64,000 nucleotides of DNA from Eubacterium sp. (lineage in GTDB: Bacteria; Bacillota; Clostridia; Lachnospirales; Lachnospiraceae). Within the stretch, counting starts at the first letter, position 1, and the number at the start of each line of letters is the position of its first letter. Made by a program: the position numbers and the translations under genes. The stretch is taken from contig JAETSX010000021.1 in NCBI GenBank assembly GCA_021769425.1, positions 1 to 64,000 on the forward strand, given 5' to 3'. The notes below the pieces were generated by a model that was not told where the DNA came from, ran no database searches, and saw nothing but the letters and a program-made list of their open reading frames with translations. Positions 7,074-15,105 of the stretch are shown here, in pieces.

Positions 7074-8024
7074 TCAGTCCTTTCTGGCTGTAATGCTGAC
7101 CCATTCTCCCAAACGCACTGTCTCCAAAATCGTAAACCCTGCCGCCTGAATTGCAGCCGCCACCGCCGTTTCTTTAAAATCAATAATGCCGCTTGTAATA
7201 TAAACGCCTCCTGGTTTCAGGCAATGGGGAATCACCGGCGTCAAAGGAATAATAATATCTGCCAGAATATTTGCAGTTACAATATCGTATCCGCCGCCAA
7301 CGGCCGTTCGCAGACTCTCATCCTCAATGAGATTTCCCTGATAAAACCTGCCTGCTTCTTCCGGAAGATGATTGACTCTTATATTCTCTCTGGAAGCAGT
7401 CATACACAGCGGATCAATATCCGTACCTGTCACCTGGCCTGCTCCCAGCTTTAAGCTTATGACTGAGAGAATCCCGCTTCCGCAGCCCACGTCCAACACT
7501 TTATCCCCCGGCTGAATGAATTTGCGGATCTGCTGAATACAGAGACGGGTGGTCTCATGCTTCCCGGTTCCAAAGGACGTACCCGGATCAATTTCCACCA
7601 CGCAGCGGTAATTTCCTGCCGTTATCTCTTTTTCCCAGGTGGGCTTAATCAGAATATCCTCAATGGCAAAAGACTTAAAATATTCCTTCCAGTTGTTGAT
7701 CCAGTCTTTATCTTCCGTCTCGCTCCGGGCTATCGTCCCTGCCCCAATTTCCACAAAGAGCCGCAGATCCTCCAGTTCTTCTTTCACCTGGGCAAGCAGG
7801 GCTTCCTGCTCTTCTTCAGTATCCAGAAAAAAACTGACATATGCTTTTCCCTCATCCGGCGGAAGTTCCGGCAAAATATCAATGTACATTTTTTCCTTAT
7901 CCTCTGCGGACAAAGGCACATTGTCTTCAATCTGAACTCCCTCAATTCCCAGATCCGCCAACATGCCGCTGATGAAATCCTCCGCCTGGGTAGTGGTTTG
8001 AATGGTATATTTGTTCCACTTCAT
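7074..8024 (-). CDS. prmA: Ribosomal protein L11 methyltransferase PrmA
   Basis: Class I SAM-dependent methyltransferase that methylates ribosomal protein L11. The sequence shows FGTGKHETTRLC, then the SAM motif VLDVGCGSGILSVISLKLG and DIVTANILADII, the PrmA-specific NxL/I motif. The start at 8024 (MKWNKYTI, 316 residues) has GGAGGAGC upstream. The longer reading frame has no homology in its first 40 residues and would run into the preceding gene. It lies 37 bp after the dlt-like operon, so read-through from that operon is possible. Confidence 0.94.
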   Translation of the reverse strand: MKWNKYTIQTTTQAEDFISGMLADLGIEGVQIEDNVPLSAEDKEKMYIDILPELPPDEGKAYVSFFLDTEEEQEALLAQVKEELEDLRLFVEIGAGTIARSETEDKDWINNWKEYFKSFAIEDILIKPTWEKEITAGNYRCVVEIDPGTSFGTGKHETTRLCIQQIRKFIQPGDKVLDVGCGSGILSVISLKLGAGQVTGTDIDPLCMTASRENIRVNHLPEEAGRFYQGNLIEDESLRTAVGGGYDIVTANILADIIIPLTPVIPHCLKPGGVYITSGIIDFKETAVAAAIQAAGFTILETVRLGEWVSITARKD

Positions 8025-8061: not shown

Positions 8062-9027
8062 CTACCAGAGATCTTCTGCCAGCTTTGCGCTGAATGCTTC
8101 CGCCTGCTGGGAATCCATATGCCCCTCATAGTCAGTAAAGCCATTCAGGCTGTAATCAAAATTCGGAATATCCCTTTCCCCGGAGTTATAGTTCCAGTAC
8201 GAAAGGCCAAGCCCTTTCAGGTAATTTCGGAAATATACATCCGCCTCCTGGAATTCTTTCTGATATTTTTCCAGCGTTTCTGCCGGAACCGGCGTTGACG
8301 CCACAATCAGTTCTATGTTCTGTTTTTTGCAGAATGCCGCCATTTTTTCAAAATACCGGAAAGAATCTTCATTTTTGTCTTCTTCTTTCCATACTTCCAG
8401 GGCGCTTTCCTCTTTCATTCCAGGCACTGGAAGATTGCGCATAAAGCCGTCTGCAAACTCCTGTCCGCCGCTGGAAAACGCACCCGCACCATAATTCTTA
8501 TAATCATCTCCCTGCTTGACCGCTATAACTTCCTTTATATTTCGAAACTGTCCCCGGTAGTAGAACCAGGGAAACAGCGTGGCGCGAAAATCCAATTCCC
8601 CCTCCTTTGCAAAAAAATACTCTGCTTTCGTCAAGGACATGGGCATTTCATAATAAATACGGTTAAAATCTCCTCTCTGTCCTTCCGGCGTACAAAAGTA
8701 GCCCGGATCTAACTCGTAAATCACCCGTCTGGGTTTCTTTTTTTCACAAACCTGTTTCAAAAGATAATAGGCGTCTCTGGGATATTCCCCGCCCAGGCAC
8801 AGATTTACCGCATCCTCGCCTGTTTTTTCAGAAACTACTTTAGGACTGATCCCATTCAGTCCATGAGAAGTTCCCAAAAATACCGTGTCGTACTCTTCTG
8901 TCTGAATCTGATGCATCATTATTCTCACATAACTGTATGGAATCAGGGCATAGTTCAATCCAAGATTAACCGCAGCAATTGCCAGAATCAGCACAATCGG
9001 CAATAGAAATTTTTTAAAACTGTGCAT
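8062..9027 (-). CDS. DltD-like SGNH-hydrolase-type membrane protein
   Basis: A 321-residue protein with one N-terminal membrane segment (about residues 7-27) and an extracytoplasmic domain. TVFLGTSHGLNGI near residue 50 is the block carrying the nucleophile serine of the SGNH/DltD type, and DYEGH near the C-terminus supplies the Asp/His pair. DltD proteins act with an MBOAT protein in moving D-alanine to teichoic acid, or similar acyl groups to surface polymers. The gene overlaps the upstream MBOAT gene by 14 bp, implying translational coupling. AGGAGG precedes the ATG. Similarity to classical DltD is distant, so the acceptor is unknown. Confidence 0.72.
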   Translation of the reverse strand: MHSFKKFLLPIVLILAIAAVNLGLNYALIPYSYVRIMMHQIQTEEYDTVFLGTSHGLNGISPKVVSEKTGEDAVNLCLGGEYPRDAYYLLKQVCEKKKPRRVIYELDPGYFCTPEGQRGDFNRIYYEMPMSLTKAEYFFAKEGELDFRATLFPWFYYRGQFRNIKEVIAVKQGDDYKNYGAGAFSSGGQEFADGFMRNLPVPGMKEESALEVWKEEDKNEDSFRYFEKMAAFCKKQNIELIVASTPVPAETLEKYQKEFQEADVYFRNYLKGLGLSYWNYNSGERDIPNFDYSLNGFTDYEGHMDSQQAEAFSAKLAEDLW

Positions 9028-10552
9028 AAATAAATCCTCCTGCCTCTCCGGAAGGCTGTCCCAACATGGGCGCCATTAAAATCAAACATAGATAAACGAC
9101 AGCCTTCACCAGCCAGTTCTGTCTGGCAAAAATCTCCGTCAAATCTATTCCTCTTTCCTGGAATACACTTACAAGAAACAGCAGTAAACACCCTCCCAAT
9201 ATCACCGCGATGGCAATCATAGTATAAGCGGTTCCGCTGGCCTCTCCAATTTCAATTCCAGGCTCTAAGATCTGGCTCAGATTAAATTTGGTCAGTGTAT
9301 TTTTCATCATAAGAAATGCAGTCTTAACATCCCCCGCCCGATCAAAATACCAGCTGATATTCACCAGAACAAAGGTCCGAAAAATCTGAAACAGATGAAA
9401 TCCCTTGCTGTCATCGGAAATGCCAAGCGCCTTTTTCCATTTCCGGTAAGAGGGGGCCATCAGCCCGCTGAATGCAATAATCAATCCGTTGTAAAGACCG
9501 TAAATAATAAACTTCCAGGCCGCCCCATGCCAAATGCCAACCACCAGGAATACAATCAGATTGGCAAGGCAGATGGGCAGTGTCCTTCCAGTCTGTTTCC
9601 CAAAAGTTTTCTTGGCAAATTTGGAAAAACTTTTCATCCATCCGGACAGGGACGCCGGATAAAACACATAATCTTTCATCCAGGTTCCCAGAGTAATATG
9701 CCAGCGGTGCCAGAAATCCGTAATGGAAACTGCAAAATAAGGACGTTTAAAGTTCTCATCCAGCTGAATCCCGAATAATTGCGCAATGCCGATTACTACA
9801 TCCATTCCGCCGGAAAAATCACAGTAAAGCTGTATGCTGTATGCTAACACTCCCACCAGTCCAAGCCCATCATAAATATCAGGATGATCAAATATTGCAT
9901 TTACAAAAATCACCGCATTGTCTGCAATGACCATTTTCTTAAAATATCCCCAGAGAATCCGCAGAAATCCGCCCTCTACGCTCTTTCTGTCCAGAGAATG
10001 GGAAGCATACAGTTGTTTGCCCAGATTGCCGAACCTGCCGATAGGCCCCTGTAAAATCTGCGGAAAAAAGGATACAAACAAAGCAAAACGGAACAGATTA
10101 TGTTCCGCCTGACTCCTGCCCCAGTAGACATCCAGAAGATATCCCATAGACTGAAAGGTATAAAAAGAAATTCCAAGAGGAAGCAAAAGCTTAAGAGGTT
10201 CAAATTCTCCTCCCGTAATGCTGCTGATGGTGCCAAGTACGAAATTCGTATACTTCAGCGCACCCAGCACGCCGAAATTCAGCGCCAGCGTTCCTGCCAG
10301 TATCCGCTTCTTCCTCCTCTTTTCCGCCTTCTTATCCTGTGCCGTTTCTGACGCCTGTTCCATCTGCCTGCCTGCAAGATATGTGGTAACTGTGGTAAAG
10401 ATTAGAAAGCAGGTCACACGGATTCCCCCGCTGACATAGTAGATATAGCTGAATGCCAACAGCCATATCCATTGAAATCTCCGGGGAATCAGGTAATATC
10501 CTGTCACTGCCGCAAGCACAAAAAGTAAAAACTCCATGGAAATCAAAGACAT
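9014..10552 (-). CDS. MBOAT-family membrane acyltransferase (DltB-like)
   Basis: This 512-residue polytopic membrane protein of the membrane-bound O-acyltransferase family would pass an activated acyl group from the cytoplasmic carrier across or into the membrane. Family marks are LLPLGISFYTFQSMGYLLDVY, DFSGGMDVVIG, DFWHRWHITLGTWMKDYVFYP and the conserved histidine in GIWHGAAWKF. GGAGGAATCGTT precedes ATG 10552, 16 bp after the carrier-protein stop. AlgI-type MBOATs also look like this, but the carrier protein and ligase upstream point to a DltB-like role. Confidence 0.85.
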   Translation of the reverse strand: MSLISMEFLLFVLAAVTGYYLIPRRFQWIWLLAFSYIYYVSGGIRVTCFLIFTTVTTYLAGRQMEQASETAQDKKAEKRRKKRILAGTLALNFGVLGALKYTNFVLGTISSITGGEFEPLKLLLPLGISFYTFQSMGYLLDVYWGRSQAEHNLFRFALFVSFFPQILQGPIGRFGNLGKQLYASHSLDRKSVEGGFLRILWGYFKKMVIADNAVIFVNAIFDHPDIYDGLGLVGVLAYSIQLYCDFSGGMDVVIGIAQLFGIQLDENFKRPYFAVSITDFWHRWHITLGTWMKDYVFYPASLSGWMKSFSKFAKKTFGKQTGRTLPICLANLIVFLVVGIWHGAAWKFIIYGLYNGLIIAFSGLMAPSYRKWKKALGISDDSKGFHLFQIFRTFVLVNISWYFDRAGDVKTAFLMMKNTLTKFNLSQILEPGIEIGEASGTAYTMIAIAVILGGCLLLFLVSVFQERGIDLTEIFARQNWLVKAVVYLCLILMAPMLGQPSGEAGGFIYAQF

Positions 10553-10568
10553 AACGATTCCTCCGCTC

Positions 10569-10796
10569 CTACTCTGCCTGCAGTCTTTCTACCATTGCAT
10601 ACAATGCCTTGGCGGAATTAAAATTCTCCGGTATAATATCTGCCGGGGTAATGGTAATGCCGAACTCATCCTGAAGTTCGCTGACAATAGACAAAATGGC
10701 AAAAGAATCCAAAATGCCGTCGTCAATCAGCGTTTCACATGTTTCATAATCTGCATCCGGCTGAATATCCTCTAAAATTTCAAGTAATTGTTCCAT
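10569..10796 (-). CDS. Acyl carrier protein (DltC-like)
   Basis: A small carrier of 75 residues when started at 10796 (MEQLLEILED), where AAAGGATG sits at normal distance. The phosphopantetheine attachment serine is in DGILDSFAIL, very like DGLLDSF of DltC. The C-terminal helix pattern (ELQDEFGITI, then NFNSAKALYAMVE) fits the four-helix carrier fold. It lies between the decarboxylase and the MBOAT gene and is the natural partner of the AMP-forming ligase. A 4'-phosphopantetheinyl transferase is not encoded in the window and must act in trans. Confidence 0.85.
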   Translation of the reverse strand: MEQLLEILEDIQPDADYETCETLIDDGILDSFAILSIVSELQDEFGITITPADIIPENFNSAKALYAMVERLQAE

Positions 10797-10865
10797 AATT
10801 CTCATCCTTTCTCTGTTTATTTCTATCTCCAACTTTATCTTAAATTTTTATCAATTGCAAATGCT

Positions 10866-12152
10866 TCAGCCGCCGGCGGAATTAATGCTGTCTGTCTCCA
10901 GCCTGTCCCGCACCAGACGGATTCCTCCTTTTTGGGAATAAAACAGGACTTTCGGCAAGTCCCTGCTGAGAAAAAGGCTGATTCCCTCTGTCACAGAGTA
11001 GGCGCCTGTCCGCTGAAATACCAGTACATCTCCCACCTGCGCATCCGTCAGGGGATACTGCTTCACAATCACATCCGCGGTGGTACACAGAGAACCGCAG
11101 ATATTCCACTTTTCTTCCCTTTTCGCCGGAGCGCATTCCTGCTCTGCATTTGAGGCATCTGCGCCCTCTTTTTCCCCATAGCCGCATGTTTGCGCCGGAT
11201 CCGCATCTGCCGGTGCGTCTGCAGCATCTCTTTCCGCGGAAATATGCTGTACAAAGGGAAGCTTCATGGCCATGGTCTGTCCGAAATAATTCAGCTGATG
11301 GATTCCTCCGTCTACAATCCCGTAAATCTGTCCGCCGTTTTCCTTCCGATCCACAATCCTGGTCAGGTAATTGCCGCATTCCGCTGCCAGAAATCTACCC
11401 ATTTCCAAAGTGATTTTTCCGGAAAAATCCATCCGGCCAATCATCTGCATCAATTCTTCCAGCAATTCTTCCAGATGCTCTTTTGGCTCCGACTGGAAAT
11501 AAGGAACAAAAAGGCCCGGCCCGTATTCCAGTTCCGAAACCGTCACGCCAAGGTCTTCCTGCACTTCCCTGCAAAATCCATCCAGCATCTTAAGCTCCTG
11601 TTCCAGCGCAGACAGCTTCTTTTTCTGAGTGCCGGAATAATACTGAATGCCCTGCAGAGAAAGCTCCGGATACGATTCCCGCTCCCGGAACATCTGTTTC
11701 GCCAGTTCATAATCTACGCCGAACTGGTTGCCGCTTGTAATGCGCACCAAAAGATTCAGCTTCACCTTTGCCTGTCTTGCACATTCTGACAGCAGCCGGA
11801 AATGCTGCATGGATTCCACGGTGAACATTCCTCTGCCCTGCTCTCGCTCTATCATGCGGGAAATATCTTTCCGTTCTTTGTTTACGCCGGAAATAACCAG
11901 CCGTTCCATGGGAAGTCCCTCTTTCTCGCAAATCCGGAATTCTCCCGGCGAACACACTTCAAACCGCTCCACCAAAGGTTCCAATGCCCCTGTCAAAAAG
12001 GGATTGGCCTTCATGGCATAACATAAATCAATTCCTGCTTTCTTCAGACAGGCCGAAATACGCTGCACCCGGCGGGTCAGGGCATCCAAATCAAACACAT
12101 AGGCCGGCGTCTGATATTCTTTCAGAATCAATTCGAACTCCTGCTGTTTCAT
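10866..12152 (-). CDS. Fold-III PLP-dependent decarboxylase in a dlt-like operon
   Basis: A 428-residue member of the alanine-racemase-like/diaminopimelate-ornithine decarboxylase family. The PLP lysine is K48 in YAMKANP, followed by FEVCSPGE. Later marks are EYGPG (209-213), the EMGR loop (250-253), the second-subunit cysteine C356 in GSLCTTAD and GAYS (383-386). These match LysA-type enzymes except that the usual GGG and EPGR motifs read GPG and EMGR, so it is not ordinary LysA. Residues 304-348 are an Ala/Glu/Asp-rich insertion. Its place beside a ligase and a carrier protein recalls BtrK, which decarboxylates a carrier-bound glutamate, and the decarboxylases of exosortase-linked clusters. 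Substrate is unknown. Confidence 0.8.
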   Translation of the reverse strand: MKQQEFELILKEYQTPAYVFDLDALTRRVQRISACLKKAGIDLCYAMKANPFLTGALEPLVERFEVCSPGEFRICEKEGLPMERLVISGVNKERKDISRMIEREQGRGMFTVESMQHFRLLSECARQAKVKLNLLVRITSGNQFGVDYELAKQMFRERESYPELSLQGIQYYSGTQKKKLSALEQELKMLDGFCREVQEDLGVTVSELEYGPGLFVPYFQSEPKEHLEELLEELMQMIGRMDFSGKITLEMGRFLAAECGNYLTRIVDRKENGGQIYGIVDGGIHQLNYFGQTMAMKLPFVQHISAERDAADAPADADPAQTCGYGEKEGADASNAEQECAPAKREEKWNICGSLCTTADVIVKQYPLTDAQVGDVLVFQRTGAYSVTEGISLFLSRDLPKVLFYSQKGGIRLVRDRLETDSINSAGG

Positions 12153-12215
12153 TACTGTTCCTCCTGATAACTTCTACATGAAAAGTCTCTGCATCCATGA
12201 AAATTCAGAATGCGC

Positions 12216-13751
12216 TTACTGCTGCTCTTTTTGATAAGACTTTTTCAGTGCGGCCCGGTCAATTTTGCCGTTTTTGGTCAAAGGCAGTCTCTCTGTTTTG
12301 CAGAATGCATTGGGGATCATAAAAGCCGGAATCAACTCCCGCATTTTTTTTACAATGGCTCTCCTCTCTGCTGTGCCTTCGTAAAAAGCGATAATTTTAC
12401 CGGATATTTCATCATAGATACAGCAGACACGGCTGATATTTTCCGCCTGTTCCATAGCTTTCTCAATTTCTCCCAGTTCAATCCGATGCCCCATGTGCTT
12501 AATCTGAAAATCTTTACGGGTGGCATAGCACAGCTCTCCCTGTCCATTGTAATATCCCAGATCCCCGGTGCGGTAAATCGTTTCTGAATATTGATGATTC
12601 AGCGGATTCTGGACAAAGACTTTCTCTGTCTGTTCCCGGTTGTTATAATAGCCCAGAGAAAGGGCCGTGCCGCTGACACAGATTTCCCCGCGGAGCCCTG
12701 GCTTTTCCACCAGCCTGTCCTCCTCGTCTAAAAGGAACACCTTCTCATTCTGAAAGGGCCTGCCCACAGGAATAGTCTCTCCCGGCTCAAATTCCCGGTC
12801 AATCACATAATATGTGCAGTTACAGGTAATCTCCGTGGGACCGTACAGATTCACATACATGGCGTCCGGCAGAAATTGTCTCCAGATATTCAAATGATGC
12901 ACCGGCATCACTTCCCCGCTGAACAAAACCTTGTTCACCGCCTTCGGCACACGATAGGAAAATCCTTTTAACTCACTTACCATGCACAGAGCCGACACGG
13001 CCCAAATTAACGCAGTCACTTTTTTCTCACATAAAAAGTCCAAAAGCTGCGTGGGAAAAGAAAACATCCGCTTTGGGATAATCTGCACGCTGGCTCCGGT
13101 TTTTAACGCGCTGTAAATATCCTTGACGGAAACATCAAAGTCGAAAGGAGCCTGATTTCCAATCACATCCTGCTCTGTAATGCCGAAATTTTCGGTGAAA
13201 TAATGGATAAAATCTATGACTGAACGATGGCTGACCACCACTCCTTTGGGGACTCCGGTAGAACCGGAAGTGAATATTCCATACAAAGGCGCCGTATCTG
13301 TCAGCGTCTTTCGGATTTCCTGTAAAATAACCGGATCTTCCTGCGCTTTCTCTAAAGCTTCGTATTCCAGAACCTGAAATCCCCTTCCTGAATCTCCCGC
13401 CTGCTCCAACTTCTCTCTTTCTTTCCCCTGTTCCCCGTCTGCAATGACAAGGGGATGCTCCAGGGTATCCAAAATCTGCCGGATGCGCGGCAGGGGCTGC
13501 TTTTTATCCAGCATAACATAAAAACAACCGGAATATACAATTCCCAGAAAAACAGCCACGGCATTTACGCTTTTTTCCATCCATACTGCAACAGGCTTCC
13601 CCGGTTCTGTCCTGCCGGCAAGGGAACTCCCGATCCTTCTGGCCCTTTCCTGCAATTCCTTAAAGGTGCAGGAAGTATTCTCATCTGCAAAAGCTTCTTT
13701 GTCCGGATGCTTCCCAGCAGTTTCTTCTAAATATTCTAATACATTTGTCAT
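12216..13751 (-). CDS. AMP-forming amino-acid:carrier ligase (DltA/NRPS A-domain type)
   Basis: A 511-residue adenylation enzyme expected to activate an amino or other acid with ATP and load it on the carrier encoded downstream. Core motifs are in order: FTSGSTGVPKGVVVSH (ATP loop), APFDFDVSVKDIY (A4, with the Asp that binds an alpha-amino group), NLYGPTEITCNCTY (A5), YRTGDLGYY (A7), IKHMGHRIELGEIE (A8) and LTKNGKIDR (A10 lysine). Length and stand-alone form match DltA. Whether the acid is D-alanine cannot be read. The start has AGGCGG, 11 bp after the J-protein stop. Confidence 0.85.
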   Translation of the reverse strand: MTNVLEYLEETAGKHPDKEAFADENTSCTFKELQERARRIGSSLAGRTEPGKPVAVWMEKSVNAVAVFLGIVYSGCFYVMLDKKQPLPRIRQILDTLEHPLVIADGEQGKEREKLEQAGDSGRGFQVLEYEALEKAQEDPVILQEIRKTLTDTAPLYGIFTSGSTGVPKGVVVSHRSVIDFIHYFTENFGITEQDVIGNQAPFDFDVSVKDIYSALKTGASVQIIPKRMFSFPTQLLDFLCEKKVTALIWAVSALCMVSELKGFSYRVPKAVNKVLFSGEVMPVHHLNIWRQFLPDAMYVNLYGPTEITCNCTYYVIDREFEPGETIPVGRPFQNEKVFLLDEEDRLVEKPGLRGEICVSGTALSLGYYNNREQTEKVFVQNPLNHQYSETIYRTGDLGYYNGQGELCYATRKDFQIKHMGHRIELGEIEKAMEQAENISRVCCIYDEISGKIIAFYEGTAERRAIVKKMRELIPAFMIPNAFCKTERLPLTKNGKIDRAALKKSYQKEQQ

Positions 13752-13762
13752 ATTGCTACCGC

Positions 13763-14254
13763 CTATGCTGAAAACTGTTTCTTTAACATATCATATGTCT
13801 TGTTAATCATCTGAAGGGTTCCTGTATCACCTGAAAGGTTATCGGGATGAAAAATCTTAATCAATTCCTTGTAACGTTTTTTCAATGCAAGTTCACTGTC
13901 CACACCGGAAAAAAACATATCCGCTTCCTGCTCTGAACCCGTAACGGTGTAGGAACGCCCCCGCTCCGTTCTCTGGTAATACCACTCCTTTTCTTTGGCT
14001 ACATCCTGTTTCTCCCTGGCTAATTTCTGCAGCTCCTCCTCTAATATCTTCCATTTCATCTGGAACAAACGCTTCTCCTCTGTGAGACGCTTTTCTTCCA
14101 TCTTTTTGCGAAAATAGAAATCTTTCTTCTCCAGTTCAAAATTCCGTCTGTCTTCTTCCAATTTTCTCTGCTCTTTTCTCAAACTATTTCTCTGCTCTTC
14201 TTCTGTAACTGGCTTCGGAATCCACTCCATTACAGTTTCTTCCGGCTGACTCAT
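13763..14254 (-). CDS. Coiled-coil protein with C-terminal J domain
   Basis: A 163-residue soluble protein, started at 14254 where GGAGG lies 7 nt upstream. Residues about 20-100 are highly charged Lys/Glu/Arg helix, likely coiled coil. The C-terminal 45 residues form a short J-domain-like unit: KKRYKELIKIFHPDNLSG carries the diagnostic HPD tripeptide, followed by MINKTYDMLKKQF. J domains recruit Hsp70/DnaK. It is the first gene of the dlt-like operon, 11 bp before the ligase, an unusual partner. A role in folding or localising the pathway enzymes is only a guess. Confidence 0.7.
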   Translation of the reverse strand: MSQPEETVMEWIPKPVTEEEQRNSLRKEQRKLEEDRRNFELEKKDFYFRKKMEEKRLTEEKRLFQMKWKILEEELQKLAREKQDVAKEKEWYYQRTERGRSYTVTGSEQEADMFFSGVDSELALKKRYKELIKIFHPDNLSGDTGTLQMINKTYDMLKKQFSA

Positions 14255-14424: not shown

Positions 14425-14697
14425 TTAAAAACTCTGCATGCACTGTTCGAACTTCTGCTTTGCCTCATTTACCTTCTGCATTTCTGCAGAGGGCGTGGGG
14501 TAATATCCTCTATCGTGCATCATGGTAAATACTTCGTTCTGGATATTGTGCTCTTTCTCCAAACAATCCAGAATGGCGTTTCTTACATTGTCATGAACAC
14601 ATTCATTGGAAAATGTGTTGTACAATGTGGTTGCTGTTTTCTCTGCTGTCAGCGCGTCCGCAAACATCTCTTTTTCTGAATAAAATGACTGCTGCAT
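14425..14697 (-). CDS. Spore coat protein, CotF-like
   Basis: A 90-residue, all-helical protein resembling the Coat_F family of small spore coat or spore-surface proteins. It begins QQSFYSEKEMFADALTAEK, followed by LYNTFSNECVHDNVR and CLEKEHNIQNEVF; such Glu/His spacing is also seen in ferritin-like bundles. The tail MHDRGYYPTPSAEMQKV is typical of clostridial CotF-like proteins. It has an AGGAGGAAAT ribosome site and its own terminator. A related small protein lies just upstream on the same strand. Expression in the sporulating mother cell is likely but no sigma-E or sigma-K promoter was identified. Confidence 0.75.
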   Translation of the reverse strand: MQQSFYSEKEMFADALTAEKTATTLYNTFSNECVHDNVRNAILDCLEKEHNIQNEVFTMMHDRGYYPTPSAEMQKVNEAKQKFEQCMQSF

Positions 14698-14732
14698 AAT
14701 TTCCTCCTGATTTCACCTGTGGTTTCCTGAAT

Positions 14733-14824
14733 TATACTCACGAGCAAACTTATTTGCCATATCATTTGCTTTTTTCTCAAATCTGTGAAAGATCTGTCGG
14801 CAAATGATTTCGCTCACGGATATA
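14733..14824 (-). repeat. 92-bp palindromic intergenic repeat, copy 2
   Basis: Same length and architecture as 3491-3582 but inverted: it starts TATACTCACGAGC and ends GCTCACGGATATA, with the internal stem GCAAATGATTT conserved. It is the most diverged of the three copies. It lies between the two coat-like genes. Confidence 0.8.
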
Positions 14825-14830
14825 AAATTA

Positions 14831-15016
14831 TTAGCTTAACTGGGAGTAAAGGGAACGGAAATGCTCTTTGTGCTCGTTAGAAATTTCAGTGAATTTCGCT
14901 TTCATTTCTGCATCGCCGCAATTATCCGCCAGCACCTGGAACTTCTTAATCAACAGTTCCTCACCGGAAAGCAAATCGTTTAACGCAGACAGTTCTTTTT
15001 CTGATATCTGGTTCAT
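14831..15016 (-). CDS. Small coat-like helical protein
   Basis: A 61-residue protein started at 15016, where AAAGGAGATTTCC gives an excellent ribosome site; the longer frame has a basic, non-homologous lead. The sequence NQISEKELSALNDLLSGEE followed by LIKKFQVLADNCGDAEMKA and NEHKEHFRSLYSQL forms two amphipathic helices, resembling half of a ferritin-like bundle and small coat-associated proteins of Lachnospiraceae. It lies 133 bp upstream of the CotF-like gene on the same strand, with a palindromic repeat between. Function is inferred from neighbourhood. Confidence 0.6.
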   Translation of the reverse strand: MNQISEKELSALNDLLSGEELLIKKFQVLADNCGDAEMKAKFTEISNEHKEHFRSLYSQLS

Positions 15017-15105
15017 GGAAATCTCCTTTCGCTTGTCTGTATCAGGCGTTGAAACTTGCCTGTCAGAATTATCTTTCCGCTTTTTGCAAAAACTATGCAT
15101 GCCAT

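Follow-up and report, generated by a model that had tools for sequence, protein, structure and literature searches.

A Dlt-like operon with a built-in decarboxylase in Lachnospiraceae: a candidate envelope aminoacylation system

Introduction

Why would an operon that otherwise resembles a D-alanylation (Dlt) operon encode an amino acid decarboxylase? The question is raised by a 64,000-nucleotide stretch of a Eubacterium sp. genome of the Lachnospiraceae (GenBank assembly GCA_021769425.1, contig JAETSX010000021.1, positions 1 to 64,000), hereafter the window. Six genes, coding for a J-domain-like protein, a DltA-like ligase, a fold-III pyridoxal 5'-phosphate (PLP) decarboxylase, a carrier protein, an MBOAT acyltransferase, and a DltD-like SGNH protein, form a run on its minus strand (14254-8062). 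An initial annotation proposed that an acidic or diamino acid is loaded onto the carrier, decarboxylated there, and moved to a surface polymer. Comparison with related genomes leads us to favor, by a modest measure, a Dlt-type system for envelope aminoacylation in which decarboxylation takes place on the carrier.

The decarboxylase is linked to a ligase and a carrier across the family

In addition to the window genome, the operon is present in Petralouisia muris and in Lachnospiraceae bacterium 3-1 and A2, in the last of these without its ligase. Among 396 evenly drawn Lachnospiraceae genomes that are at least 80% complete, 87 have an operon-type decarboxylase (E 1e-50 or better), and these represent 74 of 317 genera. 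We read 85 loci (80 fetched loci, four others, and the window), with misses that include contig ends; three of the 87 genomes (G119, G250, and G156) have fragmented or weak matches and are outside this count. A ligase gene is within 3 kb and on the same strand as the decarboxylase gene at 83 of 85 loci, with a median gap of -3 bp, and a carrier gene is within 3 kb at 79. At 59 loci, the ligase is within 200 bp and genes for a carrier, an MBOAT, and an SGNH protein are all present. The ligase, decarboxylase, and carrier genes are consecutive at 61 of the 80 fetched loci, 41 of which have the exact five-gene order. Correspondingly, a ligase was identified at E 1e-100 in 86 of the 87 decarboxylase genomes versus 164 of 396 overall.

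The linkage extends beyond the family. A class-wide search yielded a match in 19 of 341 genomes. In eight strong matches from five other families, within flanks of 1.5 kb, a ligase is directly upstream in all eight, a carrier is present in seven, and the start of an MBOAT is present in six. Six weaker hits outside the family, as well as G156, showed neither a ligase nor a carrier of this type in short flanks and were not counted; the one neighbor checked beside the weaker class hits encodes a thioesterase. The initial annotation had called for a search for the same gene order in other Clostridia and named a lack of conservation as a finding that would speak against it. The order is instead conserved.

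At 69 of 85 loci, the decarboxylase strand also carries an MBOAT gene no more than 6 kb away, and an SGNH gene is within 7 kb at 68. At the 16 loci without the former, some of which are at contig ends, the trio of ligase, decarboxylase, and carrier could supply an aminoacyl-carrier to the synthesis of a small molecule or of some other precursor, with the MBOAT and SGNH genes being frequent but separate neighbors. The genus does have clusters of this kind. At L048, L049, and L050, genes for a related decarboxylase, a carrier-like protein, and an acyl ligase occur together and resemble small-molecule pathways, with a BtrH_N protein confirmed in L050. However, the MBOAT is close at most loci, and in 11 tested genomes whose trio has no adjacent MBOAT, a full-length MBOAT is encoded elsewhere in nine and only partial matches were found in two. 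The MBOAT and SGNH proteins also retain their shuttle motif and catalytic residues (see below). We regard a small-molecule role as improbable.

The decarboxylase is distinct from LysA

The two best PDB matches of the window decarboxylase are DapDC (4xg1), ranked first, and BtrK. Its score against the lysA model (TIGR01048) is 171 bits, below the cut-off of 298. For comparison, we assigned LYSA and BTRK labels to reference rows from score and context, with four of the 24 labeled rows scored; one LysA-labeled row that was checked has 364 bits against the same cut-off. All 84 operon enzymes have the PLP lysine, and 82 also have the catalytic cysteine, the other two having gaps at that position. 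Where the HIGSQ motif of LysA has its histidine (12 of 14 LysA-labeled rows), all 84 operon enzymes have F or Y. Position 143 is Q in 84 of 84 operon enzymes versus K in 14 of 14 LysA-labeled rows. Residue 357, which follows the catalytic cysteine, is E in 12 of 14 LysA-labeled rows, whereas 82 of 84 operon enzymes have T or S there. The ten BTRK-labeled rows, which are decarboxylases from other carrier or thioesterase clusters, agree with the operon enzymes in having Y, Q, and T at these three positions. In a tree of 53 rows, built with every third operon sequence, operon enzymes form one clade (98/97) and LysA-labeled rows form another (100/97); the carrier-cluster decarboxylases of L048 and L049 are placed next to the operon clade.

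A carrier-type enzyme is suggested, more by the residues than by the tree; the decarboxylase probably acts on a carrier-bound aminoacyl group. Its identification as LysA was rejected. The distinction from LysA holds for clade, residues, and score, and the window genome has one further gene of the same Pfam family, which is LysA-like (279 bits, just below 298). As a separate observation, the decarboxylase frames in two genomes of one genus are extended by Rib/Ig-like and transglutaminase-like stretches (L219 5741-8560 and L222 4713-8057).

These findings also bear on whether the locus is an ordinary D-alanylation operon with a chance lysine-biosynthesis or amino acid decarboxylase. Such an operon would account for the Dlt-like character of the ligase, carrier, MBOAT, and SGNH protein. 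Nevertheless, the window proteins are below the equivalog cut-offs for DltA (294 of 560 bits), DltB (TIGR04091; 165 of 375), and DltC (39 of 68), and none of 24 tested genomes reached the DltA cut-off, as against two of 14 control genomes. Moreover, the decarboxylase that stays near the ligase at nearly all loci is not LysA, and a LysA-like gene is located elsewhere in the genome. We therefore consider a chance association highly improbable.

The ligase pocket may point to an acidic amino acid

Pocket codes were read by alignment to Stachelhaus positions and compared with reference codes. The code of the window ligase, DVKILSLCNK, resembles codes for small or acidic residues, and lysine at position 239 is a mark of Glu-activating domains. 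Across 79 ligase frames at the 80 fetched loci, the code is D(V/I)KxxS(L/V)CN in 71, IARGCSQASK in six, and DAKCAVLG(V/I)K in two, and position 239 is K or R in all 79. In genomes that have no decarboxylase, this position is also basic at 28 and non-basic at 10 of 38 sampled loci, which are the best-scoring ones rather than a random draw, and it is K or R in five of nine second ligases of genus-mates. The idea that a basic residue strictly marks the decarboxylase was thus rejected; Fisher values for this contrast do not account for kinship. Sister ligases with the code DAKCAGLGMK offer an independent clue that such a residue at 239 signals an acidic amino acid: 11 of 14 have a racemase gene of the Asp/Glu family no more than 400 bp away (the family is confirmed by Pfam in two of the racemases).

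Of the two substrate classes named by the initial annotation, the acidic one fits the basic residue in all 79 frames. A diamino acid has become less likely because the glutamate that follows the catalytic cysteine of LysA is Thr or Ser in operon enzymes. In the diamino version, the ligase would load a diamino diacid, for instance meso-diaminopimelate (meso-DAP), from which the decarboxylase would generate a lysyl-carrier for lysyl esters on the polymer. The relatedness of the decarboxylase to DapDC, by TIGR01048 score and by top PDB match, is in its favor. Against it are the substitution after the cysteine, the Asp/Glu family of the racemases beside sister ligases, and a pocket code that is like those for small or acidic residues. 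The probability of a meso-DAP substrate appears low.

MBOAT and SGNH proteins have the features of transfer machinery

The initial annotation expected the MBOAT and the DltD-like protein to be machinery for modifying a polymer, and their sequences bear this out. The MBOAT family profile matches DltB structures (1.2e-32, profile positions 129-416). Of the 71 MBOATs at the loci that are full-length, all but one (70) have a C-terminal Y-x-x-F/Y, which is part of FIYAQF in the window. In the excerpts of PMC12148441, FXYXXF is described as the acyl shuttle motif of DltX and of PatA-type MBOATs, and pathways with a fused shuttle motif are said to be without a carrier protein. The operon described here combines a carrier protein with an MBOAT-fused shuttle motif. 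The SGNH protein has a DltD-like fold, and its S54, D299, and H303 are invariant in an alignment of 42 rows. In the carrier, the residue after the DSF motif was tried as a decarboxylase signature and rejected; it is A in 21 of 79 and D in 29 of 79, the search pattern picked up a later helix as well, and no clean signal emerged.

Proposed mechanism and the evidence that weighs against it

We suggest the following scheme. The ligase would adenylate a dicarboxylic amino acid through its side-chain carboxylate, with Asp most likely and Glu as the alternative, and load it onto the carrier. The decarboxylase would strip the remaining alpha-carboxylate on the carrier to leave a beta-alanyl (or gamma-aminobutyryl) carrier, in the manner of FlvN, FlvL, and FlvO, which according to excerpts of PMC10951976 convert L-Asp to a beta-alanyl-carrier. 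Decarboxylation of an acidic amino acid on a carrier has a further precedent in VinN-VinL-VinO (PMC11284099, in part), and BtrK decarboxylates a glutamyl-carrier (PMC7857480, in part). The MBOAT would pass the group across the membrane to a tyrosine in its own C terminus, that of the FIYAQF motif, and the SGNH protein would accept it on Ser54 and esterify an envelope polymer. The zwitterionic aminoacyl group would thereby become cationic, like D-Ala esters. In many gut Clostridia, the group attached to the surface is probably not D-Ala but an acidic amino acid that has been decarboxylated on its carrier and left with a positive charge. At two second Dlt-type loci of genus-mates, the acceptor could plausibly be a teichoic-type polymer, because genes of the CDP-glycerol glycerophosphotransferase type (Glyphos_transf) and for an ABC transporter (L121), and a Stealth-type gene (L122), are near the second-locus ligase.

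Several observations weigh against this scheme. Six ligases at decarboxylase loci, those with the code IARGCSQASK, lack the amine-binding Asp, although the alignment could err there. A simple Ser plus Asp-His pattern is present in 62 of 71 SGNH proteins rather than in all, and eight of the ten carrier-cluster decarboxylases are nearer to LysA than to the operon clade in the tree. Among the 38 sampled loci from decarboxylase-free genomes, 11 have a ligase with the DVKxxSLCNK code. Co-occurrence has exceptions as well: G003 has the ligase without the decarboxylase, G352 has the decarboxylase and its ligase was not found at E 1e-100, and G018, which is 98% complete, carries the operon with the decarboxylase but yields only ligase relatives embedded in nonribosomal peptide synthetases (NRPSs) at E 1e-20. 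Lastly, the operon ligase is missing in five of 13 operon-bearing genomes of the genus, counting the window genome; all five are genus-mates.

The last of these points has a possible resolution. Among 28 genus-mates, 12 have the operon decarboxylase, and seven of the 12 have the ligase within the operon. In four of the five whose operon lost the ligase, a ligase with the same code is encoded at a second locus, while G018 has neither. No second ligase with the same code was seen in eight genomes with an operon ligase, in which two stand-alone relatives (28-29% identity) and NRPS domains were left uncoded. The association between loss of the operon ligase and presence of the second one (Fisher 0.007, kinship ignored) suggests that a second-locus ligase is shared with ligase-less operons, to which G018 is contrary.

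The 11 decarboxylase-free loci with the same code imply that the pocket does not require a decarboxylase and that decarboxylation is optional. A formyltransferase is encoded at five of the 11 and an acetyltransferase at one. Alternatively, the decarboxylase could act on the free acid and feed the ligase its true substrate, such as beta-alanine, with the MBOAT-SGNH step unchanged; loci with the same pocket and no decarboxylase could then obtain the product elsewhere. Excerpts of PMC11284099 provide a parallel in IdnL3 of a sister pathway, which decarboxylates free beta-glutamate before loading. We judge this alternative unlikely, since Q143 and T357 are common to carrier-cluster enzymes and differ from LysA, the basic pocket residue of all 79 frames would be left without an obvious partner once the extra carboxylate is gone, and the decarboxylase gene is between those of the ligase and carrier at most fetched loci.

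Operon layout and flanking genes

The observation that six genes are on one strand with short gaps or overlaps is confirmed (table 1). In 5' to 3' operon order, intergenic gaps are 11, 63, 69, 16, and -14 bp. By eye, stretches resembling ribosome-binding sites precede most starts, and the most likely start of the carrier gene is the ATG at 10796.

Table 1. Genes of the run and its downstream neighbor, with window coordinates
Feature	Coordinates	Strand	Evidence
J-domain-like protein, 163 aa	13763..14254	-	DnaJ 19.4 bits, below cut-off; HPD present
DltA-like AMP-forming aminoacyl-carrier ligase, 511 aa	12216..13751	-	AA-adenyl-dom 330 bits; DltA TIGR01734 294 bits; pocket code DVKILSLCNK
Fold-III PLP decarboxylase, 428 aa	10866..12152	-	Pfam Orn_Arg_deC_N and Orn_DAP_Arg_deC; residues K48, Y172, Q143, C356, T357
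Aminoacyl/acyl carrier protein, 75 aa	10569..10796	-	PP-binding; attachment serine within DSF
MBOAT acyltransferase, 512 aa	9014..10552	-	Pfam MBOAT; C-terminal FIYAQF acyl-shuttle motif
DltD-like SGNH acyltransferase, 321 aa	8062..9027	-	N-terminal hydrophobic helix; Ser54/Asp299/His303
prmA, housekeeping	7074..8024	-	TIGR00406 200 bits; 37 bp beyond SGNH gene

The J-domain protein, which the initial annotation included in the operon, does not hold up as a component of the system. Its Pfam DnaJ match is below the gathering score of 27.8 bits (E 0.0011), even though the HPD motif is present. The gene adjoins the operon in all 12 genus-mates that have one, yet a search with a model built from the genus, limited to the same strand and a distance of 6 kb, detected it only in the window (1 of 85 loci) and at none of the 84 other survey loci. 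It was rejected as a system component and is probably a genus-level neighbor outside the core.

Downstream, prmA follows the operon at 11 of 12 genus-mate loci, the twelfth being at a contig end, and was not seen at four loci from other genera. It is possibly cotranscribed with the operon and is outside the system. In two ligase-less operons, a gene for a 767-residue ABC-2-type membrane protein is located between the SGNH gene and prmA (L036 2818-5121 and L042 2715-5018). Upstream, genes for CotF-like and DUF2383-like small proteins (14425-15100 in the window) are present at eight of 12 genus-mate loci. A hairpin with a run of T's was seen by eye between the CotF-like and J-domain genes and is missing from the computed list; it is followed by a promoter-like site, TTGCTA/TATAAT, of a kind found 29 times versus 16.5 expected. 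Transcription may thus begin upstream of the J-domain gene.

Carrier tailoring may be modular

Related loci encode other enzymes where the operon has its decarboxylase or beside their ligases. A formyltransferase gene (PF00551) is between the ligase and carrier genes in second Dlt-type loci of genus-mates (L121 7204-12773, L122, and L124), which may make N-formyl-aminoacyl esters. In other genera, Dlt-type loci have a GNAT acetyltransferase gene in that position (L285 7665-8507, L288 7364-8173, and L295 4832-5716). The Asp/Glu-family racemase genes beside DAKCAGLGMK ligases (for example, L299 7478-8197 and L292 5208-6119) suggest aminoacylation with a D-acid. The window genome itself has a second ligase-carrier pair, on contig C49 (L120 7596-9412; code SMLYLALDIK), a few genes from flagellin and possibly involved in aminoacylation of a flagellar glycan.

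The occurrence of formyltransferase, acetyltransferase, or Asp/Glu-family racemase genes in related loci indicates that tailoring on the carrier may be modular. The Dlt-type cassette of gut Clostridia could be a platform in which the carrier-bound amino acid is decarboxylated, formylated, or acetylated, or is a D-acid supplied by a racemase, so that esters of varied charge replace D-Ala. We put this forward tentatively, at a little under even confidence. Surface D-alanylation is a textbook resistance route against cationic peptides in other Gram-positives; despite that role, none of the 24 group genomes tested has a DltA above the cut-off. If our proposal is correct, surface ester groups of common gut commensals have been overlooked, and the starter chemistry of macrolactams is joined to an envelope pathway. 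The ligase, carrier, and decarboxylase are of soluble types, which makes the question directly testable in vitro.

Comparison with known systems

A Dlt-like operon with a decarboxylase was not found in the PubMed Central literature searched, a scope outside of which most subscription papers fall. The closest relative is the Dlt system itself (DltA, DltB, DltC, DltD, and DltX), with which the operon shares a ligase, carrier, MBOAT, and SGNH protein in one operon, the DltD fold, and a shuttle tyrosine. It differs in its extra decarboxylase and in the scores of its DltA-, DltB-, and DltC-like proteins, all below the cut-offs given above. The gaps between the operon genes, at most 69 bp, leave no space for a separate DltX gene, and the motif is fused to the MBOAT; DltX was sought within the operon and not elsewhere in the genome. 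PatA-PatB, which O-acetylates peptidoglycan, likewise pairs an MBOAT that has a C-terminal FXYXXF with an SGNH transferase, but its donor is acetyl-CoA and it has no carrier, ligase, or decarboxylase.

The chemistry proposed for the carrier resembles that of FlvN-FlvL-FlvO and VinN-VinL-VinO, in which a stand-alone adenylation enzyme, a stand-alone carrier, and a PLP decarboxylase are encoded together. Their product, however, feeds a polyketide synthase as a macrolactam starter in actinomycete secondary metabolism rather than an MBOAT-SGNH pair. The butirosin enzymes BtrJ-BtrI-BtrK similarly use a fold-III PLP decarboxylase on a glutamyl-carrier, but for an antibiotic side chain, and BtrJ is not known to be an AMP-forming A domain. 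The exosortase A-associated ligase and decarboxylase, which lie together with a carrier, belong to related families. The window proteins nonetheless are below the cut-offs of both models (TIGR03098, 180 of 592 bits; TIGR03099, 171 of 478 bits), and to our knowledge exosortase A-associated clusters have no MBOAT-SGNH pair. From these comparisons, the operon appears to work in a Dlt-like manner with one added step, and its proteins do not reach the cut-offs of the DltA, DltB, DltC, LysA, and exosortase models.

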